DNA from: a virus
Reading direction: 5' to 3' (one strand)
Length of the DNA stretch: 36,219 nt
IMG/VR virus record: IMGVR_UViG_3300008110_000274
Coordinates: 1-36,219 of that record
In this document: in pieces, positions 7,439 to 26,297 of the stretch
Layout of the letters: every line of letters begins with the position of its first letter
Position numbering within the stretch: position 1 is the first letter of the stretch
Notes under the pieces: generated by a model
Database searches by the model: none
Seen by the model: only the letters and a program-made list of their open reading frames with translations
Told to the model about the DNA's origin: nothing
Made by a program: the position numbers and the translations under genes

Positions 7439-10234
7439 ATGAATTTATACACTGGTGTAGTTGAAAATCGAGATGACCCATTAAGAGTTGGTCGTTGTCA
7501 GGTTCGTATTCTTGGTGTGCACACTGAGGATAAAAATGTATTACCAACAAATGATTTACCATGGGCATATCCAATGCAACCTGTTACCTCTGCTTCAGTT
7601 AGTGGTATTGGTTGGTCGCCAACTGGTCCAGTTACTGGAACATGGGTTGTTATTATGTTTCGTGACGAAGATCAACAGCAGCCAATTATGCTTGGTACTA
7701 TTGGTGGTATCCCACAGACAAAAGCAGCAGAATTAGCCAAAGAAGAATCAACAGATAACATTCTTGCAACTAATGGTGGTATTTTAACAGACAACTCTGG
7801 CAATCCAGTTACTGATGGAACGGGTAATCCTATTCAAGTCGGCACTGCAGAAGCATCAAGTAAGCCAGTGCCATCCGCACCACCAGCAGCTGCATCACCA
7901 AAACCAGATATAGCTGCACAACCAGTACCAAACAAACCATCAGATGATGTTTTAAAACAAGCGATTCCAACTAAACCACCTCCACAGTCTACATCAAATC
8001 CAACAAAAGCAGAACAAAATATCAAACACTTAATTGAAGCGTGTGATAAAGTTGGATTAAAATCAAAATATGCAAAGTGTGCTATTCTAGGTATTTGTGG
8101 TGGTGAGTCTGGATGGTTACCTGTTGAAGAAGGGTTCTATTATACTAGCGCAGAAACTTTAGCAAAAATTTTTAGATTGACCTTCCCTACAGTAGAATCT
8201 GCACAACCTTATGTTAAATGGCAAGGTACACGAGAAGATTTCTTTAGAAAAATATATTCTCCTCAAGGAAATGGATCATTAGTCGGACACAAAGGTGCAG
8301 ACGATGGAGCGAAGTATTTCGGTCGTGGATTTAATCAGATTACTGGTAAAGCACTGTATACGAAACTGCAAGAATTTTTAAAGAAGAGAGGAATCATAGT
8401 TGACTTTTTGAATAATCCTAAGTCGCTAATTGATGATCCAGCAGTTGCTGCTCTTGCCACTGTTGCGTTTTATGCGTTGTTTGTTAAACACGATCAGAAC
8501 GATCCAGGATATTTTGTGAGTGCATTAAAACGAACTGGTGCTGATGCTAATGGTACTGGATATAAAAAGAAACAGAAATACTATGAGTATTTCCTTGGTG
8601 GTGTTGTAACAGTTGAACCTACCAATAAACCAGCAGCTGATGAACAGAAAACTTACACTAAAGAAGAAGTTAAAGATTTACCACCAGCAAAACAAGCAGC
8701 ATTATTAGAAGATCGTTCATCCTCAACAACAGTTGGTTTCCAAGATCCAGCAGGTAAATATCCACTACGCAATTTAATGGATGAGCCAGACACTAATCGT
8801 CTAGCACGTGGTATAATTAAAGAAACTGCTATTGAGTTTAAAGATTCAACAAGATCAAAGCAGTTACCGATTGCAAATAGTAGCGAAACATGGGAACAAC
8901 CAATTGCTCCATTTGGTGGTAAATATCCATTCTCAAAAGTTTATGAATCCGAGTCTGGTCATCTGTTTATTCTGGATGATACACCAACTCATGAGAATAT
9001 CAGTCTGTATCATCGTCAAGGATCTTTCTTAGATATTGACGCAAATGGAACACAAGTTAATAAAATTGTTGGTGATGGGTATACAATTATAGACAAAAAT
9101 GGATCGATATTTATCGGTGGTCGTTGTATACTAACAGTTGGAAATGGTGTGAGCATTCTGGTTCAAGGTAATGCTGACATAGAAGTTGAAGGACAATCTG
9201 TAATTAATCTTAAGAATCAAGCAGACATATCTGTAGCTAACGATTTAAATCTATCAGTTGGTGGTGATATGAAAACTAAAGTTGCTGGTAACTATACATT
9301 GGAAGCAGCTAACTTAGGATTTAAAACTGCTGGAAACATGAATGCAATAGCAGATGGTAATACGTTGATAACAGGTTCTGGATCTATGCAACTTCAGAGT
9401 GATGGTAATATGCGTCTTGATTACTCTCGTGGCGATTTTGGTAATGGAGCAGAAAAGGCAACAGTCGAGGCAACTGGATTATCCTTTATTGAATCTGGTG
9501 ACGCTAGACCAAATCAGTTTGGATATCTATCGACTCCTGTTCGTCCATCCCCACCTGTTGATTTAAAGTATGCACTTGAAGAAGAGAATGAAGCAGTTAT
9601 TAATGATTATGTATCAAATCCAGAAAAATATTATAATCCAAAAGCTGAAGAAAATGGAGTTAAACCAAATCTTCCACCGACACCAAAAGATTCTGGGCAA
9701 GGTAAGAGTTTAAAGTCTGATGCCCCTGCTGGTGATATACCGACGTTCTTACAGAAACAATTAGAATTAACTAAACAAAACTTCTACTGGAGAGAAACAG
9801 GTATGGGTGGTAATCCATCCAATTCAAATATTGTTCGCATCTGGATTGATCTTGGATATCCAAATCAAGCATACTGGAGATCAGATCAAACTCCATGGTG
9901 TATGGGTTTCGTTGCTTGGACACTAAAGCAATGTGGTTATCGTTACTATCAAACTGCATCATCTTGGGCAATTAGAGACTCAGCGTCTAAATTTGGTGCA
10001 ACAAAAGTTAGCCCAGCTGAAGCACAAGGTGGAGATATTGTTCTTTGGGATTTCGGACACGTTAACTTTGTTTATACTGCAACCAATGGTAAACTAACTT
10101 TTGTTGGTGGTAATCAGGGTGGTAAATCTAGAGACAATAATCCAAACTCTGGTGATGTAACAATTAGTTGGCCAAGTGGATGGACGCAAGCAAAGGGTGG
10201 TATCGTTGGAATCTGGCGACCAAGTAAGACATAA
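7439..10234 (+). CDS. 5: Baseplate spike gp5 with GH19-like and CHAP lytic domains
   Basis: 931 aa, compared with 575 in T4. Residues 1-105 are the gp5 OB-fold (YTGVVENRDDPLRVGRCQVR, MFRDEDQQQPIMLGTIGG). Residues about 140-195 are a Pro/Ala-rich linker. About 200-390 is a lysozyme-like glycoside hydrolase of GH19/chitinase type, with catalytic-type E223 in CGGESGW and the substrate-groove motif YFGRGFNQITG near 295. Residues about 450-530 resemble the gp5 region before the helix. Residues about 540-665 are the triple beta-helix needle (repeats such as SVGGDMKTKVAGNYTLEA). About 760-931 is a CHAP-type amidase or endopeptidase of the TIGR02594 pattern, with C821 in PWCMGF, H874 in GHVNF and the following VGGNQGG. 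The protein would puncture the outer membrane and digest peptidoglycan. Two hydrolases on one spike is the unusual part. Confidence 0.88.
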   Translation: MNLYTGVVENRDDPLRVGRCQVRILGVHTEDKNVLPTNDLPWAYPMQPVTSASVSGIGWSPTGPVTGTWVVIMFRDEDQQQPIMLGTIGGIPQTKAAELAKEESTDNILATNGGILTDNSGNPVTDGTGNPIQVGTAEASSKPVPSAPPAAASPKPDIAAQPVPNKPSDDVLKQAIPTKPPPQSTSNPTKAEQNIKHLIEACDKVGLKSKYAKCAILGICGGESGWLPVEEGFYYTSAETLAKIFRLTFPTVESAQPYVKWQGTREDFFRKIYSPQGNGSLVGHKGADDGAKYFGRGFNQITGKALYTKLQEFLKKRGIIVDFLNNPKSLIDDPAVAALATVAFYALFVKHDQNDPGYFVSALKRTGADANGTGYKKKQKYYEYFLGGVVTVEPTNKPAADEQKTYTKEEVKDLPPAKQAALLEDRSSSTTVGFQDPAGKYPLRNLMDEPDTNRLARGIIKETAIEFKDSTRSKQLPIANSSETWEQPIAPFGGKYPFSKVYESESGHLFILDDTPTHENISLYHRQGSFLDIDANGTQVNKIVGDGYTIIDKNGSIFIGGRCILTVGNGVSILVQGNADIEVEGQSVINLKNQADISVANDLNLSVGGDMKTKVAGNYTLEAANLGFKTAGNMNAIADGNTLITGSGSMQLQSDGNMRLDYSRGDFGNGAEKATVEATGLSFIESGDARPNQFGYLSTPVRPSPPVDLKYALEEENEAVINDYVSNPEKYYNPKAEENGVKPNLPPTPKDSGQGKSLKSDAPAGDIPTFLQKQLELTKQNFYWRETGMGGNPSNSNIVRIWIDLGYPNQAYWRSDQTPWCMGFVAWTLKQCGYRYYQTASSWAIRDSASKFGATKVSPAEAQGGDIVLWDFGHVNFVYTATNGKLTFVGGNQGGKSRDNNPNSGDVTISWPSGWTQAKGGIVGIWRPSKT

Positions 10235-13307: not shown

Positions 13308-15700
13308 TGATTAATAAGCCAAAATTATCATCGCTGGTTTCAAAGCAACTCCCTGAGTTTATCAGGGAGGATTACCCAACATTTGTTGCTTTCTTAGAAG
13401 CATACTATGAGTGGCTTGGAACACAGGATGCTGATCTTTATACATTAAGAGATATTGATAAAACTTTAGAAAATTTTATTCAATATTTCAGAGCAGAACT
13501 TGCATTTAATTTACCAAATATTGATGTTAATGAGAAGTTTTTATTAACCAATATAAAGGACAAATATCTCGCAAAAGGTTCTGAGGCATCTTTTAAGTTA
13601 CTGTTTAGACTTCTGTTTAATAAAGAAGTTACAGTTGACTATCCTGGAAAGAAAATATTAAGAGCATCTGATGGTCGTTGGAATCAGGATGTTTCTATTT
13701 TTGTTAGAGTTAATGCTGGTAATCCCAACTCGATCGTAGGTAAAATAGTTGATGTTGTAACACCAGTTAAAATTATTCGCATTCTTATTGATCGTCGTCA
13801 AGATGTTGAAGTAGAAATCGATAGATTTGTTCAAATTTCTCCAGACACTTATGAATTTTACATTGATCGTCGTTTCTTCGGTGAAGTCAATGTAGGCGAT
13901 CGTATTCGCTATGAAGGTATTTTTGATGGTACAATCGTATCAACAACTTCAAAAATTGATGTATTGCAACGTGGTAAAAACTTTAAAGTTGGTGAACTCT
14001 ACGAAATACGAAATGGTGATGGTGCTGGCTCTATTCTAAAAGTAAAGAGCGTTGACAGTGTAGGTGGCATTTCAGCAGCTGAATTTGTTAAGTATGGTAT
14101 TGGCTATGAGACAGACTTTACTGCAACTCTTATTTCTAAAACAGGGCAGACAACAACTGGTTTAGGCACTACTGCTGTAAGTGTTTCTACTGTATCAAAT
14201 GCAGTAACTTCCATACAGTTATCAAATGGTGGCTCAGGATATTCAGCCACTCCTACAGTTGCGTTAAGTGGCGGTGGATTTACAACTGCAGCTACTATTG
14301 GAAGTGTGACTGTAGTTGGTGGTGTAATTACAGAAATTAAATTAGCCACGAATGGTAGTGGTTATGTAACTACACCAAATGTTATTATCGTTGACGCTAC
14401 TGGAATTAATGCTTCTGCTACTGCAACAGTCGGTGAAGTTAATAACTATCAAATATTTGAAACTACTTCTGGATTTAGAGAACAAGGTTATGTAAACAAG
14501 GCTGACTATACTCAAGACATACCAACTGTTTGGGAAGCAGATAAACTGTTTACACTTGGAACTCAGTTATACTATCAAGACAGATTATATCAGGTTACAA
14601 CTGCAGGTACAACATCAAATGTTCCACCAACACATAAGATCACATCAACTGTAAATGCTGGATCGTTTGTAAATGGTACTGCTTATGTTATCACTTCCAT
14701 AGGGAATACTGATTTTACTTTAATCGGTGCAGCTGAAAATGCTATTGGAGTTAAATTTACAGCTACTGGTGCTGGCGCAGGAACAGGAACTGCTGGTCTT
14801 CCAGTTTCAGCTAGTAACGGAACTGCAACATTAGAATATGTTCGTGTACATGGTCCAGCATGGGATGGCACTTATGCTGGTGAAGTTATTCGTCAATTCT
14901 ACTATGAGTCGGTAGACGTAGTTGTAGATCCTTTAGATCCAGCAATTATTAAAGTTTCTCTTGGACCACTAACAAAGTATCCAGGATACTACGCAACAAA
15001 TGATGGATTCTTGGATGACGATATTTACATTCAAGATAGTAGATACTATCAAGTATACTCATATTTGATTAAGATTGACGAAAGATTAGAATCATACAAG
15101 TCAGCAGTAAAAACACTGGTGCACCCAGCTGGTTTAGCGTTGTTCGGTGAATATGATATTAGGAACGAGTTCCACTTAGATCTACACCTAACCTCTCTAT
15201 TACAAATTTTGGTTCTTGCTTTCCAAGATGAAGTATTTGTTAATGATAATACTTTAATTGAGTTTGTTGTATCAAAACTACTTGAAACACCATTTACAAC
15301 CTCAGATCAATTAACATATTCACTAAACAAACCACTGGCGCATAGTTTTTCATTATCAGACGATGCGGTTTTAAGAGACTTCTCAAAACTTTTAAGTTCT
15401 TCCACAACAGGGTTTTCTGAAACTCTTACACGAGATGTAGGAAAATCTCTTGCACATTCTGCTATTCCAACAGAAGAAATTACTGCTAAAGATTTTTCAA
15501 AGGCATTATCAACTAGTTTTACACAATCTGATAGCACCGTATTAACAACAGATAAATATATCAGTGAATCTACTTCAGTAGTTGGCAGTGGTGGAAATAT
15601 TTGGCACCAACCATATGATAACCCATTTCCAGAATCTAATGCGTATTTTGCAAACGATGCTGGTAACTACACAATAGGCGAAACAGCCTTTACAGGATAA
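13307..15700 (+). CDS. 7: Baseplate wedge protein, gp7-like by N-terminus and position
   Basis: 797 aa against 1032 in T4 gp7. The N-terminus (VSKQLPEFIREDYPTFVAFL, EAYYEWLG, then KDKYLAKGSEASFKLLFRLL) is the conserved start of the gene that follows gp6 in marine T4-like phages. Identity with gp7 rests mainly on order. Residues about 260-365 hold three Gly-rich GxGY repeats, also found in gp8. About 425-520 is a ligand-binding-like module (YYQDRLYQVTTAGTTSNVPP, ending NGTATLEYVRV) interrupted by a TDFTLIGAAENAIG segment. After a helical linking domain (YDIRNEFHLDLHLT), residues 663-755 form about five 19-residue repeats. It is probably a wedge scaffold with surface-exposed decorations. Confidence 0.7.
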   Translation: MINKPKLSSLVSKQLPEFIREDYPTFVAFLEAYYEWLGTQDADLYTLRDIDKTLENFIQYFRAELAFNLPNIDVNEKFLLTNIKDKYLAKGSEASFKLLFRLLFNKEVTVDYPGKKILRASDGRWNQDVSIFVRVNAGNPNSIVGKIVDVVTPVKIIRILIDRRQDVEVEIDRFVQISPDTYEFYIDRRFFGEVNVGDRIRYEGIFDGTIVSTTSKIDVLQRGKNFKVGELYEIRNGDGAGSILKVKSVDSVGGISAAEFVKYGIGYETDFTATLISKTGQTTTGLGTTAVSVSTVSNAVTSIQLSNGGSGYSATPTVALSGGGFTTAATIGSVTVVGGVITEIKLATNGSGYVTTPNVIIVDATGINASATATVGEVNNYQIFETTSGFREQGYVNKADYTQDIPTVWEADKLFTLGTQLYYQDRLYQVTTAGTTSNVPPTHKITSTVNAGSFVNGTAYVITSIGNTDFTLIGAAENAIGVKFTATGAGAGTGTAGLPVSASNGTATLEYVRVHGPAWDGTYAGEVIRQFYYESVDVVVDPLDPAIIKVSLGPLTKYPGYYATNDGFLDDDIYIQDSRYYQVYSYLIKIDERLESYKSAVKTLVHPAGLALFGEYDIRNEFHLDLHLTSLLQILVLAFQDEVFVNDNTLIEFVVSKLLETPFTTSDQLTYSLNKPLAHSFSLSDDAVLRDFSKLLSSSTTGFSETLTRDVGKSLAHSAIPTEEITAKDFSKALSTSFTQSDSTVLTTDKYISESTSVVGSGGNIWHQPYDNPFPESNAYFANDAGNYTIGETAFTG
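15293..15570 (+). repeat. About five 19-residue repeats at the gp7-like C-terminus
   Basis: Residues about 663-755 of the gp7-like protein read as successive units FTTSDQLTYSLNKPLAHS, FSLSDDAVLRDFSKLLSSS, TTGFSETLTRDVGKSLAHS, AIPTEEITAKDFSKALSTS and FTQSDSTVLTTDKYISES. Each carries a Ser/Thr-acidic start, a hydrophobic middle and a Lys-x-Leu/Ile plus Ser-rich end. The DNA copies have diverged, so the repeat is old and kept for structure. Confidence 0.75.
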
Positions 15701-15705
15701 TCAAC

Positions 15706-15710
15706 AGGAG
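15706..15710 (+). promoter_or_regulatory. Strong ribosome binding site for the 148-aa structural gene
   Basis: AGGAG lies six bases before the ATG at 15717. Most genes in this run are translationally coupled and lack such a clear site, so this gene probably has a higher translation rate than its neighbours. Confidence 0.75.
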
Positions 15711-15716
15711 AATTCT

Positions 15717-16163
15717 ATGAATCTACAAGAAACAATGAAAATTACAGGTAAATTAAATATTGTCGTTCGTGACGAAATCGGCAATGTGAAACAAACATTA
15801 GATGTACCTAACTTAGTCGTTACAACTGGTAAGAACTATATCGCATCTCGTATGGTCGGTACTTCTTCTACAGTTATGAACGGTATGGCGATTGGTACTG
15901 GTACAGGAACTCCAGCAGTGGGTGATAGTGCTCTTGGCACTGAAGGTGGTCGTGTTGCACTATCAACATTTACTGCAAGTTCAAATGCTGTTACTGCGAC
16001 TGCTACTTTCCCAGCAGGTACAGCGACTGGTGCTATCACTGAAGCAGGTATTTTTAACAACTCATCTACTGGCGGTACTATGCTTTGTCGTACTACTTTC
16101 CCAGTTGTTAATAAAGCAGCTGGCGATTCTATCGCTATCACTTGGGTAATCACAGTAAGCTAA
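15717..16163 (+). CDS. 148-aa beta-rich virion protein between gp7 and gp8
   Basis: The protein opens with a short charged part (MKITGKLNIVVRDEIGNVKQ), then TLDVPNLVVTTGKNYIASRM, a Gly/Thr-rich region (GMAIGTGTGTPAVGDSALGT) and an ending FPVVNKAAGDSIAITWVITV. The same style of protein (GxGxxxPxxxDxxLxxE, then EAGIFN and a final ITW strand) is common among phage tail or fibre structural proteins, but no function is established that I can name. A clear AGGAG site, and insertion between two wedge genes, suggest a many-copy baseplate or fibre-attachment protein. This is an inference. Confidence 0.75.
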   Translation: MNLQETMKITGKLNIVVRDEIGNVKQTLDVPNLVVTTGKNYIASRMVGTSSTVMNGMAIGTGTGTPAVGDSALGTEGGRVALSTFTASSNAVTATATFPAGTATGAITEAGIFNNSSTGGTMLCRTTFPVVNKAAGDSIAITWVITVS

Positions 16164-16169
16164 AACTAA

Positions 16170-19100
16170 ATGACTATCGCACCTTCTTCCCTTCTAAAAT
16201 CATACATGCACAATTCGATTGCGGAGGGGATATACCACGAAATTACAAATAGAACTGCTAGGTACTATTATTTCCTTGGAAAAACTTTAGTCTGGAACAA
16301 CGAAGATACTCCTCCATTTCCTATTGATAGTTTCAATTATGAAATGCAAACAAGAACTGAGATGATTACCTTCAAGGAAATCAAACCAACTGATGTTGCG
16401 TTTGTGATTCCAAGACATAGTTGGCAACTGAATACTGTATATGATATGTATGACGATCAATACAGTAAAGAAGTTCAAGGATATAATTTAATCTCTGGTG
16501 GTATTGGATATAGTTCTGCTCCATACGTTTGGGTTGGATCAGCTGGATCAGTCACATGGACTGCTAACACAGTAATATTGCAAGGTGCGTTTATCAGAGT
16601 AACGAATGGTAATGGAGGATTCCGTTACTATGTTGCAGCGACTGGTGGAACAACTGGAACTACAGCCCCAACTCATACTGAGGGTAGTGTTACAAATGGT
16701 TCAGTTTTGTTCACTCATGTAGTTGTTACTGATGGTAATGGTTCAGGTGCTTCTGCGCAAGCAGTTATTCTAGATGGTAAAGTTATAGATGTAATTTTAG
16801 TAGAAAGAGGTATTAATTATACTTCTGCACCATCAGTACATATTGCTGGTGGACAAGGTTCTGGTGGCATCGCAAGAGCGGTAGTTAACATTGCTCCATC
16901 TGGTGTTCAAAAATTAGAAGACGCACGTTTTTATGTTGTGACAGATGAGTTTAACGTATACAAATGTCTAGACAACAATAACAATGCACAGTCTTTATAT
17001 AAACCTATTGGAACAGGAGTTGATCCGATCACTTTCCCAGATGGTTACATGTGGAAATTTTTGTATAATATTCCTATTGCTTTAAGAACTAAATTTTTGA
17101 CAAATGACTATATGCCTGTAGTCACAGCACTAAAGAATCAATTTTATTCAAGTGGTAATCTACAAGCTATTAGAATTGATCAGGCTGGATCAGGATATAC
17201 AACTGGAACAATTACTGTACAGGGTGATGGATATCTTGAACAAGATCCAATTTATATTACTGCTGGAACTATCTCAAATCAGGGAACTGGATACTCATCA
17301 GCTACATTAACAGTAACACCACCATTCTCAAACGTCTCTGCGTGGTTGCCAAGCACTTTAGTTATTCAAGGACAGAAACTTTCTTACAATAGTAATATTT
17401 ACGAGGTTTCTGTTTCTGGTACTACAGGGACTGTTGGACCAATTCATCGCTATGATATTGTAGCAAATGGAACATCTGCACTAAAATATGTTGGTACTAC
17501 TATTACTGGAACAGTTACACTTACTGGTAGTAATGTCACAGCTATTAATCTTTCTGGTATGATTCGTGACATTCAGATTATTAGTAATGGTTCTGGATAT
17601 ACTTCTGCTCCAGTTGTTAATATTACTGGTGGTAGTGGAACAGGTTCTCATGCTGCAGCAGTTTTACAAAATGGTAGTGTCATTCAGGTTATTGTTACAA
17701 ATAATGGAGACGGATTTACTTCTGCTCCAACGATCACTTTCGGAACACCTTGGGCATCACAAGCAGAAGTTTCTTTAAGTGATCAAATTTTTTCAAGTAA
17801 TAGATTATACACCGTAACCTCTGCTACTCCACAATTAAATATTTCTAGAGCATCATATACTGGTAAATCAGTATCCGTCAATGCGAGAGATACTGCACCT
17901 TCAGGTATTACATTTTCAGCTGATGGTACAAAAATGTTTGTGTTGGGTGATACTGGGAATAATGTTGTAGTATATAATCTTTCTACAGCTTGGGATGTTT
18001 CTACTGCAGGGTTTTCTTACGAATCTGGCGCATTACAAACTGAAACTGCTCCTACAGGAATAGCATTCTCTTCTGATGGTTTAAAGATGTATGTTGTTGG
18101 AACAGTAGGAGATTCTGTACAAGAATATACATTAGCTACCCCATGGACAATTTCAACTAGTGCTCTTACTGCAGCAGCATCTTTTTCAATACTATCACAA
18201 GATACTACTTCTGGTGGATTAGCATTTAGTTCAACAGGAAATAAAATGTGGGTGGTTGGTTCAACAGGTGATGCTGTTTATGAATATACACTATCAACTC
18301 CATGGAGTGTTTCTACTGCATCTTTTACTACTTCTTTTAACGTAGCTACTCAAACTACTAGTGCTGGTGATATTTGTTTTAGTGCTGATGGTAAATATAT
18401 GTTAGTAGTAGATTCTAGTACTGATATCATTTATCAATATACTTTGGGTACAGCTAATTCAATAGCAACCGCACTATATACAACTTCATTTTTTGTAGGT
18501 GGCTCAGAAGCAACTCCTACAGGAATATTTTTACATCCTTCTAATCAGTTTTTCTATGTAGTTGGTACCAATGGAGATACTGTTTATCAGTTTCAAAATT
18601 TACTTTTATCTAAACTGGGAACTGTAGCTCCATCTCATATTTCTGGAACAGCTGTTAATGGTGATGTGATTTTAACCTATGTTGGCTCTCCTGCAACTGC
18701 AACATCATCTTTAAAATATGGAGCAGGTTATTCTGCTGTTCCAACAGCAACTATTGTTGGTAATACTGGATCTTCTGGAGCCACTGTTACATTTTCCTCT
18801 GTTAAATCTGAAGCGAAGTTGATTCCAATTTTTGATGCTGGACAATTAGTAGATGTGCAGATCGATGATGGTGGTATCGGATACAGTTATGTTAACTTAA
18901 CAGTTAATGGTAATGGTTCGGGTGCAGAAATTTCTGCCTTACTATCCCCTGGTGATATTAACTCACTACAGGCAAACATTGAATTGTTGACAATTGATGG
19001 TAGAATTATGTCAATACCGATTGTTTCTGGTGGATGGGGTTATGCTGCAGCGACAGTCACAATTGAAGGTGATGGTACTGGTGCAACAGCAACTGCTGTA

Positions 19101-19721
19101 ATTGAAAATGGAACCATTAAGAAAATAAATATGGTTGCTTATGGACAAAACTATCGTTGGGCTAGAGCAGTAATTTCTGGTAATGGTTATGGAGCAAAAG
19201 CACGACCTGTAATCACACCATTTGGTGGACACGGTAAATATGCTATCAATGGTCTATTTGCTAGAACATTGATGTTTTATACTAATATCTCTGGTGATAA
19301 GAATCAAGGTTTTGTTGTAAATAACGATTATCGTCAACTTGGAATTGTTAAAAACCCAAGACAGTATAATAGCACTACAAACGCTGTAGCAATTTCAGGT
19401 TCAGCATGTTTTGTTATTTCTGGTAATATTAGCACCACATTTTTCCCAGCTGACTCTATTATTAGAGAATCAGTAACATCAAGAAGATTTAGAGTAGTTA
19501 CAAACACAGGATCGGCTGCACTCGTTCAATCATTAGATAACTTTGTACCACAGATTGGTACAACTTTTGTTAATGATGGGAACTTCACTTTTGTGGCAAA
19601 CGCAGTTACCCTACCTACGATAGATAAATATTCTGGAGATCTTTTGTTTATAGACAATAGACAAGGTTTTACTCCAACTATCGACCAGTCTGTTACATTG
19701 AGAACTATTCTCCGTTTTTAA
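16170..19721 (+). CDS. 8: Baseplate wedge protein gp8, greatly enlarged with inserted modules
   Basis: 1183 aa, against 334 in T4 gp8. The N-terminus (SIAEGIYHEITNRTARYYYF, then RTEMITFKEIKPTDVAFVIP) and C-terminus (GGHGKYAINGLFARTLMFYT, DYRQLGIVKNPRQYNS) keep the gp8 family pattern, so the decoration lies between two halves of an otherwise normal wedge protein. The middle contains nine GxGY-type Gly-rich repeats (about residues 110, 213, 341, 373, 475, 513, 851, 902, 955) and three modules ending in a Pro-T/S/I-His ... YVG pattern. It also contains a five-repeat propeller-like domain at about 575-811. The insertions probably project from the outer wedge and may bind surface glycans. Translation starts six bases after the preceding stop. 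Confidence 0.8.
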   Translation: MTIAPSSLLKSYMHNSIAEGIYHEITNRTARYYYFLGKTLVWNNEDTPPFPIDSFNYEMQTRTEMITFKEIKPTDVAFVIPRHSWQLNTVYDMYDDQYSKEVQGYNLISGGIGYSSAPYVWVGSAGSVTWTANTVILQGAFIRVTNGNGGFRYYVAATGGTTGTTAPTHTEGSVTNGSVLFTHVVVTDGNGSGASAQAVILDGKVIDVILVERGINYTSAPSVHIAGGQGSGGIARAVVNIAPSGVQKLEDARFYVVTDEFNVYKCLDNNNNAQSLYKPIGTGVDPITFPDGYMWKFLYNIPIALRTKFLTNDYMPVVTALKNQFYSSGNLQAIRIDQAGSGYTTGTITVQGDGYLEQDPIYITAGTISNQGTGYSSATLTVTPPFSNVSAWLPSTLVIQGQKLSYNSNIYEVSVSGTTGTVGPIHRYDIVANGTSALKYVGTTITGTVTLTGSNVTAINLSGMIRDIQIISNGSGYTSAPVVNITGGSGTGSHAAAVLQNGSVIQVIVTNNGDGFTSAPTITFGTPWASQAEVSLSDQIFSSNRLYTVTSATPQLNISRASYTGKSVSVNARDTAPSGITFSADGTKMFVLGDTGNNVVVYNLSTAWDVSTAGFSYESGALQTETAPTGIAFSSDGLKMYVVGTVGDSVQEYTLATPWTISTSALTAAASFSILSQDTTSGGLAFSSTGNKMWVVGSTGDAVYEYTLSTPWSVSTASFTTSFNVATQTTSAGDICFSADGKYMLVVDSSTDIIYQYTLGTANSIATALYTTSFFVGGSEATPTGIFLHPSNQFFYVVGTNGDTVYQFQNLLLSKLGTVAPSHISGTAVNGDVILTYVGSPATATSSLKYGAGYSAVPTATIVGNTGSSGATVTFSSVKSEAKLIPIFDAGQLVDVQIDDGGIGYSYVNLTVNGNGSGAEISALLSPGDINSLQANIELLTIDGRIMSIPIVSGGWGYAAATVTIEGDGTGATATAVIENGTIKKINMVAYGQNYRWARAVISGNGYGAKARPVITPFGGHGKYAINGLFARTLMFYTNISGDKNQGFVVNNDYRQLGIVKNPRQYNSTTNAVAISGSACFVISGNISTTFFPADSIIRESVTSRRFRVVTNTGSAALVQSLDNFVPQIGTTFVNDGNFTFVANAVTLPTIDKYSGDLLFIDNRQGFTPTIDQSVTLRTILRF
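17890..18603 (+). repeat. Five propeller-type repeats inside gp8
   Basis: Five units of about 50-52 residues begin APSGITFSADGTKMFVLGDT, APTGIAFSSDGLKMYVVGTV, TSGGLAFSSTGNKMWVVGST, SAGDICFSADGKYMLVVDSS and TPTGIFLHPSNQFFYVVGTN. Each is followed by a Y-x-L/Q-type strand and, in the first three, a TPW- or TAW-like linker. This is the layout of beta-propeller blades of the kind FSxDGxKMYVVG. DNA copies are clearly diverged. Whether the fold closes with five blades cannot be told from sequence. Confidence 0.8.
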
Positions 19722-19730
19722 GAATAAATA
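19722..19730 (+). promoter_or_regulatory. Candidate late promoter before the DUF4815 gene (GAATAAATA)
   Basis: GAATAAATA, followed by AAAG, lies just after the gp8 stop and 33 bases before the ATG at 19764. It differs from the T4-type late box TATAAATA at one position. The same 13 bases GAATAAATAAAAG recur at 31472 in front of the giant fibre gene, with similar spacing. Confidence 0.5.
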
Positions 19731-19763
19731 AAAGCGACAACCATTAGGACAAAGAGTTAAAGA

Positions 19764-22700
19764 ATGATAGACTTCAACACAGAACCATATAATGACGATT
19801 TTGACGAGAATAATAAATTCTATCGAATCTTATTTCGACCAAGTTTCGCTGTGCAAGCTAGAGAACTTACACAGATGCAAACGATTCTTCAGAATCAAGT
19901 TAAGTATCATGGAGACCACATCTTTAAACAAGGTGCAATGGTTATTCCAGGACAGGTTTCTATTGATTCAGAAGTGCACTATGTTAAATTGCAATCAACA
20001 TACGCTGGTGCGGTAGTTGAAACATATGTTAATGAATTAGAAGGATTGACTGTTGTTGGTCAAAGTGGTCTAACTGCGCAAGTTATTAAAGTAGAAAATG
20101 CTTCAGGTGCAGATTTTGCAACTCTTTATGTTCGTTACACTAACTCTGGTGACAATAATACAACAAAGACTTTTGCTGATGATGAGATTATTACTCCACA
20201 GGATGCTTTACTTTCTGCATATACTGTACAGGCAATTTCTTCAGGTGCAATAGGAACTGGTTCAACTGCAACAGTTGAACGTGGTGTATACTATATCAAT
20301 GGTCATTTTGTTTTAGTTGATAATCAAACTATTACACTAGACAAATATTCAAACACTCCAACATATCGTGTTGGATTAACTGTAGAAGAAAAACTAATTA
20401 CTCCAGAAGATTCAGGTTATGAAATGCTTCTGGACAATGCACAGAACAGCTATAACTTTGCTGCTCCAGGTGCGCATCGATACTATATTGACTTAATCTT
20501 ATCTAAAAAAGGTATTAATGCTACTGATGATGTAGACTTCGTTGAGTTACTTCGTGTAGATGAAGGACAAATCAAGCGTCACGTAACTAGAACAGAATAC
20601 TCTCAAATAGAAAAAACTTTGGCTCGTCGTACATTTGATGAGTCTGGTAATTACACTGTTCGTAGTTTCCCTATTGATATTCGTGAACATCGCAATAATA
20701 ATCGTGGTGCGTGGGATGATAACACTGCTTATCTCATCGGAGACGTTGTAACTAGTGGGACTAATTCAGCAGGCAACCCAATCACATATGTTGCAAAAAA
20801 TTCAGCAACATCAATTAACATCGCTCCAGTTCATACATCTGGTTCTGCTTATGATGGTCCAGGATCTACTGGTGTTCAGTGGGAATATAATCAAAACCCA
20901 TATTACAATCGTGGTATCTATACACCAGAAGATGGCGGAGATGAAGCAAAACTTGCTGTTGGTTTAGAACCAGGAAAAGCATATGTGCAGGGTTATGAGA
21001 TTGAAAAAGTTTCAACGGAGTATGTTCCAGTAGATAAATCAAGAACATTCGTACAGGTTGATAATGCAATTATCCCTGCGACTGTTGGTAACTACATTCT
21101 TATCACAAACGTAAATAATCTTCCACCTGTAAATACATTTGGTAGAGTTACACTTTATGATCGTTTGACTGGCTCAGGTGGTCGTGGTTCTTCTGCTGGA
21201 ACTGCAGTTGGTACAGCACGTGTTCGTTTTATCGAATGGCATAATGGTACAATTGGTACGAATGCAGCGATTTACAAACTAGGTTTGTTTGATGTTCAAT
21301 TAAATGCTGGTGCAACTACTCGTAAGATTAAATCATTCTTCTTTGATAATGGAGATGCTAATCTTAATTTTACTGCAGATATCGAACCAGAGTACAATCG
21401 TTTAATCGGTGCGGTTACAGCTGCTGGTGTACAAAATGTCACAGGTGCAGGAACTTCTTTCCAGACTGATCTTGTAGTTGGTGACTATGTTCGTCTAGGT
21501 ACTGACATTCGTAGAGTTACAGCAGTTAATTCACAAACATCTATTACAGTTGATGCTAACGTAACTGTTACTGGTGCAACTATTGATAGAGTAATAACTA
21601 CTGTTCGTGAACCAGAAAATGTTTCTTTATTATATCAATTCCCATACTATGCTATTAAATCTGTAAGAAGTGCACTTGGTACAAACGATACTGCATACAC
21701 AGTTTATGAAAGATTTGCAGGAACTACATCTTCAGGTTCTGGTGGTACTTGCACATTAACCGCTACAACATCAAGTGGAACATTTGCCTCTGCAGCAGAA
21801 ACTGACAACTATATTTTAGTTAATAATGATTCTACTTCAGGTGGTGCTATTGTAGCACCAAATAGCATCACTGTATCTGGATCAACTGTTCAATTTGTTT
21901 TACCAGATACATATGCTTCTACTAACTTTATTATTATCGGTGCTGTTAATAAGACTGGCGCAACACTAACTGAGAAATCCAAAACTTTAACAACTACAAC
22001 AGTCACATTTAGCACACAAGCTGCTGCAACTAAGAGTGAATTACTTTTAGGTAAAGCAGATGGTTATAGATTGATTAGTGTTAAGATGGATACTGGAACA
22101 TTTGCCTCTCCATCTGGATCTTATTCTGTAGATATTTTAGATCGTTACGATTTTGATTCTGGACAAAGATCTACCCATTACGATGTCGCAAGATTAGTTT
22201 TAAGATCCTCTTACGCTGCACCTAGTGCTCCTGTTCAAGTTGTTTATGAGTACTTCCAGCATTCTACTGGAGATTACTTTACTGTAAACTCATACCCAGC
22301 AAATGTAGCATATGGAAGCATTCCAATTTACCAAGGAATTTCTCTAAGAGATTTTATTGACTTTAGACCACGTATTTCTGATGATGGTGTAGATTTTGCC
22401 AGCTCTGGCTCTTCAATCTCTTTAGTTCCAAAACGTGGTATTGATATTCGTGCTGACTTCCAATACTACTTGGCACGTAAGACTAAGATTGCTATCGACT
22501 TTAATGGTCAATTTTTTGCGATTGATGGTGTTCCTTCTCTAATTCCTGGAGAGCCATTAGATCCATCTCTTGGTATGATTCTTTATGATCTATCGTTAGA
22601 ACCATACACATTCGGTACTGCAAGTAATAATGTTGTTATTAACTCTCATGACAATAAGCGTTACACGATGCGTGATATTGGTAAACTTGAAAAACGAATC

Positions 22701-25700
22701 GATAACCTAGAGTACTATACTTCTCTTTCTTTACTGGAACAACAAACAGAATCATTAGACATTGTTGACTCTACAGGTGAGTCAAGATTTAAGAATGGTT
22801 TTATTGTAGATGGTTTTACAGGACATAATACTGGTGATGTTACATCTGCAGATTATCTCTGTTCTATTGATATGGAAAAGGCAGAACTTCGTCCATTCTA
22901 TTCGATGCAGAACGTAAATCTTATTGAGAAAAATTCTAATAATACTCAACGCACTGCAAGTAACTATCAATTATATGGTGATGTCATCACACTTCCAGTG
23001 ATTGAACATGTTCCATTAGTTAAACAAGATTATGCATCTCGTTTAGAAAACATCAATCCGTTTGCTATTTTTACATTCTTAGGTAACGTAACTCTGACTC
23101 CAGCAACAGATGATTGGTTTGAAGTTGATCGTCGTCCAGATATCGTAAACGAAGTTGAAGGTAACTTCAATGTGATGAAGAATATTGCTGAAAGATCTGG
23201 AGTTCTTGGAACAGTGTGGAACGCATGGCAGACTCAGTGGTCTGGTGCTTCTACTACAACTAGAACAGTATTTACTGCTGGTGATAACTGGGCATCTGGT
23301 CAAGGAAATGTTCGTATTGGCATCGGTGAAATGCAAGCACGATTTGGCGGTCCAGGATCTAATCACTGGAATGCTCGACAGGTAACAGTTGATATGACTG
23401 CAACTCAAGTTGGTCAAACTCGTACTGGTACTAGAACATCTATAGTTCAGAAAATTGATCGTCAAGTTGTAGCAGATCGTGTTCTTTCTACCGCAGCTAT
23501 CCCATACATTCGATCAAGAAATATTCTAGTACAAGTTAAAGGATTAAAACCAAACACACGTTTCTATCCATTCTTTGACGACATCGATGTTACTGCACAG
23601 TCAACTCCAGCTTCAAAGATTGTTTACAATCCGACTGGTGCGACCGCAGCTGCTAAACTTACTACTCACAACTCTTTTGATGACTCTACAAATGTCGGTG
23701 GTCTATCAACTGATGTAGCACGTCGTATTGCTGGTGATACACAGGTATGTTTAAATCGTGGTGACGTAGTCACTGGACAAACTTCTGGTGCAACTGCTGT
23801 TATTGTTGGTAAAGAATATAACCCAGATACTGATGTATATTCACTATTTGTTTCAAATATTAGAGGAACATTTACTGCGGGTGAAACTTTTGTTGGTTCG
23901 ATATCTGGAGCGACAGGTGCATATACTTCTATCACCACAAACACTGTAGGTGGTAATCTAGTTACAAACTTCAGCGGTGATTTAAATCTATTGTTTAATA
24001 TTCCAAACACTGAGGCATTACGTTTCCGTACTGGTGCACGTGAGTTTAAACTTGTAGATACAGACCAAGCCCTTGGAGCGTTTACTTCTCGTGGTCGTGG
24101 TATCTATCGTGCGCAGGGTATCCTTGAAACTCGTCAGCAAACTGTTAATGCAGTTCGTAATGCCGAACTTGTTGAAGAACAGATTCGTGACAATCGAGTT
24201 ATTGTTCAGACTTCTGATCGTATTGTTGCAGATACTGGTTGGTGGGATCCACTTGCACAGACATTCCTTGTTGAGCAAAAGGGTGGTGCATTCTTAACTA
24301 AAGTTGATATCTTCTTTGCATCTAAAGATCCAGCTATTCCTGTGAATCTAGAGATTCGTGAGGTTGTAAACGGATATCCAGGAAAATTAGTTTTACCATT
24401 CTCTAAAGTATCAATTAAACCAGAACAAGTAAATCTATCAGCTACTACAGTTATGGTTGATGGTGTTTCTGTACCAAAGTACGATACTCCAACTACATTT
24501 AACTTCCCAAGTCCAGTGTACGTGCAAAACAACACTGAGTATGCGATTATTCTGTCATCAGACTCAAATAACTACAAAGTTTGGATCTCTCAGATTGGAG
24601 ATCAGATTCCAGGATCTTCTCGTACAATTTCTGAACAGCCATATATGGGTGTATTCTTCAAATCACAGAACGCATCTACTTGGACTGCTGATCAAACTCA
24701 AGATTTGAAGTTTACGATTTATCGTGCTAAGTTTGAAACTAATACTGTTGGTAACATCGAGTTTGTGAATGATGTTCTACCATATCAGACTTTAGACTTT
24801 GATCCAGTAGAAACTAGAACTGGTGTGAGTAAGATTCGTGTATATCAACAGAATCATGGTATGCCTGCTAGTTCACGTGTTGTAATTACTGATTCGAATG
24901 CTACTCGTTTAACTGGTGTAGCTGGAACAGGAACAATTACTACTTCTACATCAAACACTACCGTAACTGGTGTAGGAACATCGTTTACTACACAACTGGT
25001 AGTTGGTTCTGCTCTATTTAATAATGCTGGAACTTATGTTGGTAAGATTGCTTCTATTTCAAGTAATACTTCTGCAACTCTTGCAGCTAACGCTATCGTT
25101 GCATTGGCAGGAACTGCGTTTAAATATACAGCACCAATCAATGGTATCCCAACTCCAGAATTCTACACCACTCATATTATCAGTGATGTAGATCTAGATT
25201 CTTACTGCATTACTGTAGCTTCAAATGCTACTGCGACTGGATATGCTGGTGGTACTACTATTCGTGCAACTCGTAATATTCAATACGATGAAGTGCAGCC
25301 ACTTGTTCAAGTTCAGACATTCTCTGAAACTATGACTACATTTGGTATTAAGACTACATCTGGTAAGTCTGTAGACAGCACAACACAGACTCCTTATGCT
25401 CTTGATAGTACGTTTGCCGATATTCTTGCAAACGAAAACAATCCGTTCTTCACTCCAAGAATGGTCGCTTCTGAGGTTAACGAAACAAATAGTCTAAGTG
25501 GTAATAAGTCTGTTACATTTAACGTAACAATGGAATCTTCTAATGATTCTCTATCACCAATCCTAGACACTCAGAGAACTTCTCTGGTAGCTATCAGCAA
25601 TAAGGTAACTAGCCCATCTGAGACTAATACAAACGTAGCAAATCTAGACGATAGTACTTTACTATCGAGTAATACAAATATTGCATTTAATGGTACTACA

Positions 25701-26297
25701 GAAGCTATCACTTCTACAAATGCCACTGCTCGTCAGATTCTACAGACTATTCCTGTGGGTAAGTATGTAACGATTTCTGGTACAACTTCTGGAACAAATG
25801 ACGGAACATTCCTAGTGACTGGTGTTTCTGATGATGGAACTACAACTTCTGTGACTCTATCTACTAACCTAACAACACAGTCAGCTGGTGCTTCTGTAAC
25901 AATCAAACTTCGTGAGATGTTTGTTGCGGAGATTGCTCCAGTTGGAAGCACGACTTACAGCAAGTATCTGACTAAGAAAGTGAACCTAGCAAATGCTTCT
26001 ACTTTTGCTAGAATTCGTTTTGCTGCAAGTATTCCTGCAGACGCTGCAATTGAAGTTTACTATAAAGTAGGTGCAGTTGGTTCTAATGCTGAGTTTAGCA
26101 CTCTGAACTGGACTGCATTAAGTTCTGATGCTCCAATCGTTTATGCACAGCAGGGAAGTGATAGATTTACTGATATGACTTTCTCAACTGGTAATATTAC
26201 AGCATTTGAGTCTATTCAGATTAAACTTGTGATGAAGTCTACAAATACATCGGCTGTACCAAAGATTAAAGATCTTCGTGTAATTGCGTGTGCTTAA
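19764..26297 (+). CDS. Giant DUF4815 baseplate-periphery protein (gp9/gp10 position)
   Basis: 2177 aa, the longest complete gene of the window. The start (FNTEPYNDDFDENNKFYRIL, FRPSFAVQARELTQMQTILQ, QGAMVIPGQV) is the DUF4815 pattern. A ligand-binding-like module lies at about 315-375 (AWDDNTAYLIGDVV to STGVQWEY). Two GxGTSFxTxLVVG modules lie at about 546-610 and 1715-1790. The core has DTGWWDPLAQTFLVEQKGGA, VNLEIREVVNGYPGKL and TWTADQTQDLKFTIYRAKF. The C-terminus ends in a jelly-roll-like domain (FESIQIKLVMKSTN, PKIKDLRVIACA). Following gp8 it occupies the T4 gp9-gp10 slot, so it may link wedges to fibres. T4 gp10 similarity is not visible by eye. No frameshift is seen. Confidence 0.75.
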   Translation: MIDFNTEPYNDDFDENNKFYRILFRPSFAVQARELTQMQTILQNQVKYHGDHIFKQGAMVIPGQVSIDSEVHYVKLQSTYAGAVVETYVNELEGLTVVGQSGLTAQVIKVENASGADFATLYVRYTNSGDNNTTKTFADDEIITPQDALLSAYTVQAISSGAIGTGSTATVERGVYYINGHFVLVDNQTITLDKYSNTPTYRVGLTVEEKLITPEDSGYEMLLDNAQNSYNFAAPGAHRYYIDLILSKKGINATDDVDFVELLRVDEGQIKRHVTRTEYSQIEKTLARRTFDESGNYTVRSFPIDIREHRNNNRGAWDDNTAYLIGDVVTSGTNSAGNPITYVAKNSATSINIAPVHTSGSAYDGPGSTGVQWEYNQNPYYNRGIYTPEDGGDEAKLAVGLEPGKAYVQGYEIEKVSTEYVPVDKSRTFVQVDNAIIPATVGNYILITNVNNLPPVNTFGRVTLYDRLTGSGGRGSSAGTAVGTARVRFIEWHNGTIGTNAAIYKLGLFDVQLNAGATTRKIKSFFFDNGDANLNFTADIEPEYNRLIGAVTAAGVQNVTGAGTSFQTDLVVGDYVRLGTDIRRVTAVNSQTSITVDANVTVTGATIDRVITTVREPENVSLLYQFPYYAIKSVRSALGTNDTAYTVYERFAGTTSSGSGGTCTLTATTSSGTFASAAETDNYILVNNDSTSGGAIVAPNSITVSGSTVQFVLPDTYASTNFIIIGAVNKTGATLTEKSKTLTTTTVTFSTQAAATKSELLLGKADGYRLISVKMDTGTFASPSGSYSVDILDRYDFDSGQRSTHYDVARLVLRSSYAAPSAPVQVVYEYFQHSTGDYFTVNSYPANVAYGSIPIYQGISLRDFIDFRPRISDDGVDFASSGSSISLVPKRGIDIRADFQYYLARKTKIAIDFNGQFFAIDGVPSLIPGEPLDPSLGMILYDLSLEPYTFGTASNNVVINSHDNKRYTMRDIGKLEKRIDNLEYYTSLSLLEQQTESLDIVDSTGESRFKNGFIVDGFTGHNTGDVTSADYLCSIDMEKAELRPFYSMQNVNLIEKNSNNTQRTASNYQLYGDVITLPVIEHVPLVKQDYASRLENINPFAIFTFLGNVTLTPATDDWFEVDRRPDIVNEVEGNFNVMKNIAERSGVLGTVWNAWQTQWSGASTTTRTVFTAGDNWASGQGNVRIGIGEMQARFGGPGSNHWNARQVTVDMTATQVGQTRTGTRTSIVQKIDRQVVADRVLSTAAIPYIRSRNILVQVKGLKPNTRFYPFFDDIDVTAQSTPASKIVYNPTGATAAAKLTTHNSFDDSTNVGGLSTDVARRIAGDTQVCLNRGDVVTGQTSGATAVIVGKEYNPDTDVYSLFVSNIRGTFTAGETFVGSISGATGAYTSITTNTVGGNLVTNFSGDLNLLFNIPNTEALRFRTGAREFKLVDTDQALGAFTSRGRGIYRAQGILETRQQTVNAVRNAELVEEQIRDNRVIVQTSDRIVADTGWWDPLAQTFLVEQKGGAFLTKVDIFFASKDPAIPVNLEIREVVNGYPGKLVLPFSKVSIKPEQVNLSATTVMVDGVSVPKYDTPTTFNFPSPVYVQNNTEYAIILSSDSNNYKVWISQIGDQIPGSSRTISEQPYMGVFFKSQNASTWTADQTQDLKFTIYRAKFETNTVGNIEFVNDVLPYQTLDFDPVETRTGVSKIRVYQQNHGMPASSRVVITDSNATRLTGVAGTGTITTSTSNTTVTGVGTSFTTQLVVGSALFNNAGTYVGKIASISSNTSATLAANAIVALAGTAFKYTAPINGIPTPEFYTTHIISDVDLDSYCITVASNATATGYAGGTTIRATRNIQYDEVQPLVQVQTFSETMTTFGIKTTSGKSVDSTTQTPYALDSTFADILANENNPFFTPRMVASEVNETNSLSGNKSVTFNVTMESSNDSLSPILDTQRTSLVAISNKVTSPSETNTNVANLDDSTLLSSNTNIAFNGTTEAITSTNATARQILQTIPVGKYVTISGTTSGTNDGTFLVTGVSDDGTTTSVTLSTNLTTQSAGASVTIKLREMFVAEIAPVGSTTYSKYLTKKVNLANASTFARIRFAASIPADAAIEVYYKVGAVGSNAEFSTLNWTALSSDAPIVYAQQGSDRFTDMTFSTGNITAFESIQIKLVMKSTNTSAVPKIKDLRVIACA

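Follow-up and report, generated by a model that had tools for sequence, protein, structure and literature searches.

A split module in a T4-type gp8 gene

The window examined here is a stretch of viral DNA of 36,219 nucleotides (IMG/VR record IMGVR_UViG_3300008110_000274, positions 1 to 36,219). At 16170-19721 it carries one open frame whose product is, as judged by profile matches, a T4-type gp8 baseplate wedge protein. The surrounding genes are of the T4 baseplate type and include a gp6-type wedge protein (PF21379, phrog_219), small wedge subunits (phrog_261, phrog_232), a gp5 OB domain and a tail-tube cap. The features of the gp8 gene are as follows, with the evidence for each in brackets.

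16170..19721, plus strand: gp8, baseplate wedge subunit, 1183 aa (phrog_438, baseplate wedge, E 9e-93; Pfam Phage-Gp8, PF09215, 28.6 bits with a cutoff of 25)
16560..16742, plus strand: CBM5/12-like module 1, uninterrupted (alignment of module copies)
17331..17513, plus strand: CBM5/12-like module 2, uninterrupted (alignment of module copies; model strands 403-406, 409-415, 430-433 and 436-443)
17745..17834, plus strand: left part of module 3, residues 526-555, with LYTVT (alignment with uninterrupted relatives; strands 539-542 and 545-552)
17835..18611, plus strand: insert, predicted closed five-bladed beta-propeller, residues 556-814 (AlphaFold2, fold matches, clean gap in relatives)
17853..17876, plus strand: N-terminal strand, residues 562-569, predicted to complete blade 5 (model strand 20-27; half-repeat match 556-576)
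17898..18050, plus strand: repeat 1, blade 1, residues 577-627 (repeat spacing, model, repeat HMM)
18051..18209, plus strand: repeat 2, blade 2, residues 628-680 (repeat spacing, model, repeat HMM)
18210..18362, plus strand: repeat 3, blade 3, residues 681-731 (repeat spacing, model, repeat HMM)
18363..18515, plus strand: repeat 4, blade 4, residues 732-782 (repeat spacing, model, repeat HMM)
18516..18596, plus strand: repeat 5, strands a-c of blade 5, residues 783-809 (repeat spacing, model, repeat HMM)
18612..18689, plus strand: right part of module 3 (KLGTVAPSHISGTAVNGDVILTYVG) (alignment; strands 827-830 and 833-839)
17745..18682, plus strand: exchanged tract, the sole strongly differing part of gp8 relative to the contig L002 (blastn blocks 15549-17745 and 18627-22056; junction alignments)

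Three further observations concern the rest of the window. The gp5-type protein (7439-10234) has a Gp5 OB domain at its N-terminus and a CHAP domain near its C-terminus (residues 815-892); T4 gp5 carries a lysozyme domain. A perfect 48-base tandem repeat (857-955, 2.1 copies) lies inside a minus-strand open frame that matches the tape measure protein. Finally, 161 bases (23302-23462) of a 2177-aa gene at 19764-26297 are absent from the near-identical contig L001, where the frame is shifted, and this difference is either real variation or an assembly fault.

The window gp8 contains three copies of a module of about 60 residues, with the pattern W...GQ.YY.NRLYTVT.AGTTGTTAPTHTSG..NGTA.L.YVG, and the interruption is found in the third copy only. 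There, LYTVT occupies residues 546-550 (17805-17819) and the module restarts at K815, LGTVAPSHISG (18612), so that about 259 residues separate the two halves (residues 526-555 and 815-840). The original prediction had placed the insertion inside a ligand-binding-like module and not beside it. This is borne out by one clean gap in the relatives and by the resumption of the module at K815, and the predicted position, after LYTVTSA at about residues 543-553, agrees with the insert found here between LYTVT and GTVAPSH.

Describing the module as ligand-binding-like is also fair. A profile of 31 module copies matched the receptor-binding domain of a cyanophage tailspike (PDB 7eea, E 9e-11), which is that of Pam1 gp17 (PMC9382816), and more weakly the chitin-binding domain of chitinase A1 (E 0.004). 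Pfam CBM_5_12 (PF02839) was matched by 15 of the 31 copies, weakly for single members (best 1.2e-4). Together these profile matches point to a module of the CBM5/12 type.

The insert seems to leave its host module intact. In a model of the full-length protein its two halves have their strands in the same order as module 2, mostly at pLDDT 80-89. This model has a mean pLDDT of 61 with a poorly predicted core, and its insert region, covered by two alignment rows, is unreliable; its quality is insufficient for searching folds, and it was used solely for the strand order of the split module.

Other gp8 proteins also carry additional material at this module. A different insert, of about 80 residues and of the GxGY-repeat type, is found just after GTTAPT in the same module of three relatives (L017:5995-8865, L036:1622-4486 and L037:5828-8656), from which it seems that the module accepts insertions more than once. 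At the same place, L044:3604-6798 and L053:7728-10922 have tandem extra copies of the CBM5/12-like module, while L013:3-2459 has an added copy further downstream in gp8.

The insert is a predicted five-bladed propeller

The repeats of the insert start at residues 577, 628, 681, 732 and 783, with spacings of 51, 53, 51 and 51, and are preceded by half a repeat. A repeat HMM recovered all five (i-E 5e-20, 6e-21, 7e-22, 1.5e-15 and 6e-6) together with the N-terminal half-repeat, and had no match in the window outside the insert. The original prediction of five FSxDGxKMYVVG repeats was therefore right about their number; the motif itself is clear in repeats 1 and 2, and is degenerate in repeats 3 to 5.

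The predicted structure of the insert alone (AlphaFold2, with an alignment of 64 rows) has a pLDDT of 92.9 and a pTM of 0.90. It contains 20 strands in order, arranged as five blades of four strands in a closed ring. The N-terminus supplies strand d of blade 5, blades 1 to 4 follow with four strands each, and the remaining three strands belong to blade 5. Because the first strand closes the ring the two ends of the propeller meet, which explains how it sits in a loop. A structure prediction lacking a propeller had been named beforehand as a result that would count against the idea, and the insert is instead confidently predicted to be a closed five-bladed beta-propeller.

Among the structures listed, YjiK of E. 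coli and the glutaminyl cyclases, which we take to be five-bladed propellers, come closest to the insert model (Z 20-23). The six-bladed NHL and Pizza6 propellers rank below these (Z 18-19). Foldseek alone ranked six- and seven-bladed propellers first, with a TM of about 0.5. Most runs of related propellers in other proteins also comprise six matches, that is a half-repeat plus five, so five blades are the normal size for this propeller family.

Relatives with and without the propeller

In an alignment of 27 gp8 sequences the insert appears as a single clean gap, and the relatives that lack it read LYTVTxAGTT-G(S/T)TAPxHxSGTA. The module is uninterrupted in L003, L004 and most other aligned relatives. 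A good example is L002, in which it is likewise uninterrupted and gp8 is 98.8-99.3% identical in DNA to the window on both sides of the exchanged tract. The genes adjoining gp8 are almost unchanged between the two over the 5.7 kb compared. The tract covers the propeller together with both halves of the split module, which indicates that the window lineage received a replacement cassette and not a bare insertion. In agreement with this, amino acid identity between the window and L002 is 92-100% outside and about 50% in the module flanks.

Three other explanations of the insert were rejected. That the propeller is a core part of all gp8 proteins, the other outcome named in advance as speaking against the original prediction, conflicts with the clean gap in most relatives, one of them about 99% identical around it. 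An assembly fault conflicts with the presence of the insert in independent contigs, including L001, a contig of the same virus that is 99.7% identical over 13 kb. An intein or other mobile element is rejected as no such domain was found in Pfam or PHROGs. A DNA repeat search of the region found no duplication at the two insert junctions; the repeats present are those of the blades and some weak, chance-like pairs. Since gp8 copies without the propeller are the majority, it is not needed for baseplate function.

Exchange of the propeller between gp8 genes

The propeller is found at the same point of gp8 in nine further contigs of other viruses (L060-L061, L211-L214 and L215-L217). Nested propellers are thus restricted to few lineages, namely that of the window and two further gp8 clades. 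In a tree of the gp8 core the window is sister to the propeller-less L002 (support 1.0), inside a propeller-less clade, with L060 grouped with L212 elsewhere, as is L216, the latter with a poorly supported placement (0.11). In a tree of 67 propellers, a sample gathered by similarity to the window propeller, the four gp8-nested propellers form one clade (0.999), in which the window propeller adjoins the L060-type pair (0.994).

The amino acid identities between the window and L060 tell a similar story. They are lowest in the gp8 core (36-61%), higher in the propeller (56-78%) and highest in the module flanks (72-91%); overall, the propellers are 72% identical and the gp8 cores about 50%. The nested propellers form one clade, the gp8 cores that host them are scattered, and the window propeller is nearer to that of L060 than the cores are to each other, which argues that the cassette moves between gp8 genes. 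The simplest reading of these sequence comparisons is one original nesting, followed by transfer between gp8 genes. Exchange between lineages was not part of the original prediction. The window is a clear natural case of a domain inserted into a domain, caught soon after it reached this lineage.

A second example is provided by L060 and L212, whose gp8 cores are 93-95% identical in DNA and whose propellers are only 80.5% identical. Synonymous divergence (dS) is 0.74 in the propeller, compared with 0.17-0.27 in the core. This raised dS points to allele exchange rather than to selection alone. The two propellers differ by 18% in protein with a dN/dS of 0.15, and there is no sign of positive selection.

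These results bear on whether the propeller has any selected role. It might be a neutral passenger, inserted by chance and tolerated because its ends meet, and in keeping with this many gp8 proteins lack it and the same module holds other material in three relatives. However, reading frame and fold are preserved in three separate gp8 clades, the L060 and L212 propellers have kept a low dN/dS despite their divergence, and the cassette was transferred to the window lineage. We therefore regard a neutral passenger as highly improbable.

A proposed role in surface recognition

We propose that the propeller is an exchangeable domain by which the baseplate recognizes surfaces or glycans, in the manner of Gp45 of phage phi11, and we give this reading a probability of roughly 60%. 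The propeller would fold independently in the loop of the CBM5/12-like module of gp8. Its N-terminal strand would complete the last blade, leaving the two ends adjacent and allowing the domain to fit the loop without disturbing the host module. Exposed on the surface of the baseplate, it would bind a glycan on the host surface, or another ligand found there, through the face formed by the variable d-a and b-c loops and through the central channel, next to or together with the CBM-like module. Its passage from the gp8 gene of one phage to that of another would take place through homologous recombination at the edges of the module.

The variability of the loops is consistent with such a role. 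The d-a and b-c loops, which form one face of the propeller, are far more variable than the a-b and c-d loops (mean entropy 2.25 versus 1.02 bits, p 3e-13), with the qualification that many kinds of propeller have variable d-a and b-c loops and that the a-b turn is also structurally constrained. This face is the usual ligand face of propellers. Two observations weigh against the recognition reading: the comparison of L060 with L212 (dN/dS 0.15) gives no sign of positive selection on the propeller, and the majority of gp8 copies lack it.

A catalytic role might be suggested by some of the profile and fold matches. The insert scores 42.8 bits against SGL (PF08450, cutoff 26.3), on its own passes the Pfam cutoffs for Lactonase and Arylesterase, and has glutaminyl cyclases among its nearest folds, so the propeller might catalyse a reaction on surface sugars or on lactones. 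Yet five blades are predicted here, compared with six in SGL and seven in Lactonase; the insert is thus not predicted to be an SGL-type six-bladed propeller, though its score passes the cutoff. Furthermore, the columns conserved at 70% or more are framework residues repeated in each blade, and the family alignment has no evident conserved non-framework column of a catalytic type. The main recurrent polar position of the variable face is a Gln once per blade, which is mostly replaced in the window copy (R573, T624, Q677, Q728 and S779). This combination favours recognition over catalysis, and we consider an enzyme distinctly unlikely.

The propeller could also be a structural accessory without contact to the host, serving to hold a further protein of the virion (a tail fibre or a second wedge subunit, for example) or to stabilize the baseplate. 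Gp8 is a wedge protein amid other tail proteins, propellers frequently serve as scaffolds for protein binding, and the purifying selection seen between L060 and L212 would suit such a function. Against this, few gp8 lineages have the propeller, and L002 does without it while its adjoining genes are almost unchanged. Allele exchange also fits more readily with a partner that is external and variable. A purely structural role therefore seems somewhat unlikely, and recognition of a surface ligand remains our preferred reading.

More tentatively, and at somewhat less than even odds, gp8 in some T4-type phages may be a platform for swappable receptor-binding domains, whose alleles are traded and help to set host range, with a binding module serving as the docking loop for a second binding domain. 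In T4-type phages the tail fibres are generally credited with host recognition. A swappable propeller on a conserved wedge protein would mean that recognition domains can also be carried by the rim of the baseplate itself. The window and L002, with and without the propeller, and L060 and L212, with diverged alleles of it, are pairs that make the recognition reading testable.

Comparison with known systems

The original prediction held that T4 gp8 has nothing like this propeller. This fits with a solved gp8-type wedge subunit of 341 aa (PDB 9f4a), which matches the N-terminal, middle and C-terminal segments of the window gp8 core, in order, and nothing beyond the core. The statement needs some widening, however, as this subunit lacks not just the propeller but also the array of GxGY repeats and CBM-like modules. 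The modules of the Pam1 tailspike (PDB 7eea) and of the chitinase chitin-binding domains are, by profile, the same as those of gp8; these are uninterrupted, whereas one of the three copies in the window gp8 holds a propeller in its loop.

The propeller family extends well beyond gp8. Five-repeat propellers are widespread in prokaryote genome assemblies (L131-L209), many of them marine, and the carriers include Pelagibacteraceae, other Alphaproteobacteria, Bacteroidota and Patescibacteria. Among phages, fibre-like proteins such as that of Lentibacter phage ICBM2 contain the same five-blade unit of about 255 aa, 40-46% identical to that of the window, but these have no gp8 core match and string one to three units along long proteins. 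A BFVD protein that bears the name baseplate wedge subunit has the fold as well. A propeller of the same family lies between GxGY repeats in a protein of Synechococcus phage S-SCSM2R annotated as baseplate wedge protein 53 (L284:1951-4293, XQU49932.1), so gp8 is not the only wedge protein to carry one. In INPHARED we found no phage with a gp8 core and a window-type propeller in one place, and hence no cultured example there, and the part of the literature covered yielded no report of a propeller in gp8.

The closest known parallel is Gp45 of Staphylococcus phage phi11. This receptor-binding protein of the baseplate contains a propeller of five blades that is most similar in fold to a glutamine cyclotransferase, and the receptor sugar GlcNAc could fit into its cavity (PMC4901313). 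The window propeller resembles it in its place at the baseplate, its five blades and the N-terminal strand that closes blade 5, and it falls in the same fold group; this likeness is one of fold. In contrast, Gp45 is a dedicated homotrimer with a helical stem and a tower, while the window propeller is nested in gp8 between the halves of a CBM-like module. Propellers are also found in phiKZ gp131C and PRD1 P2, which are considered to function at the phage end that binds the receptor or close to it (PMC4901313). The former is seven-bladed and the latter has a distorted five-bladed head, and neither is nested in a wedge protein, unlike the one described here. Propellers in phage baseplates are thus already known. 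What is new is that one is nested in a CBM-like gp8 module, that a nearly identical gp8 with an empty site exists, and that there is evidence for the exchange of the cassette.
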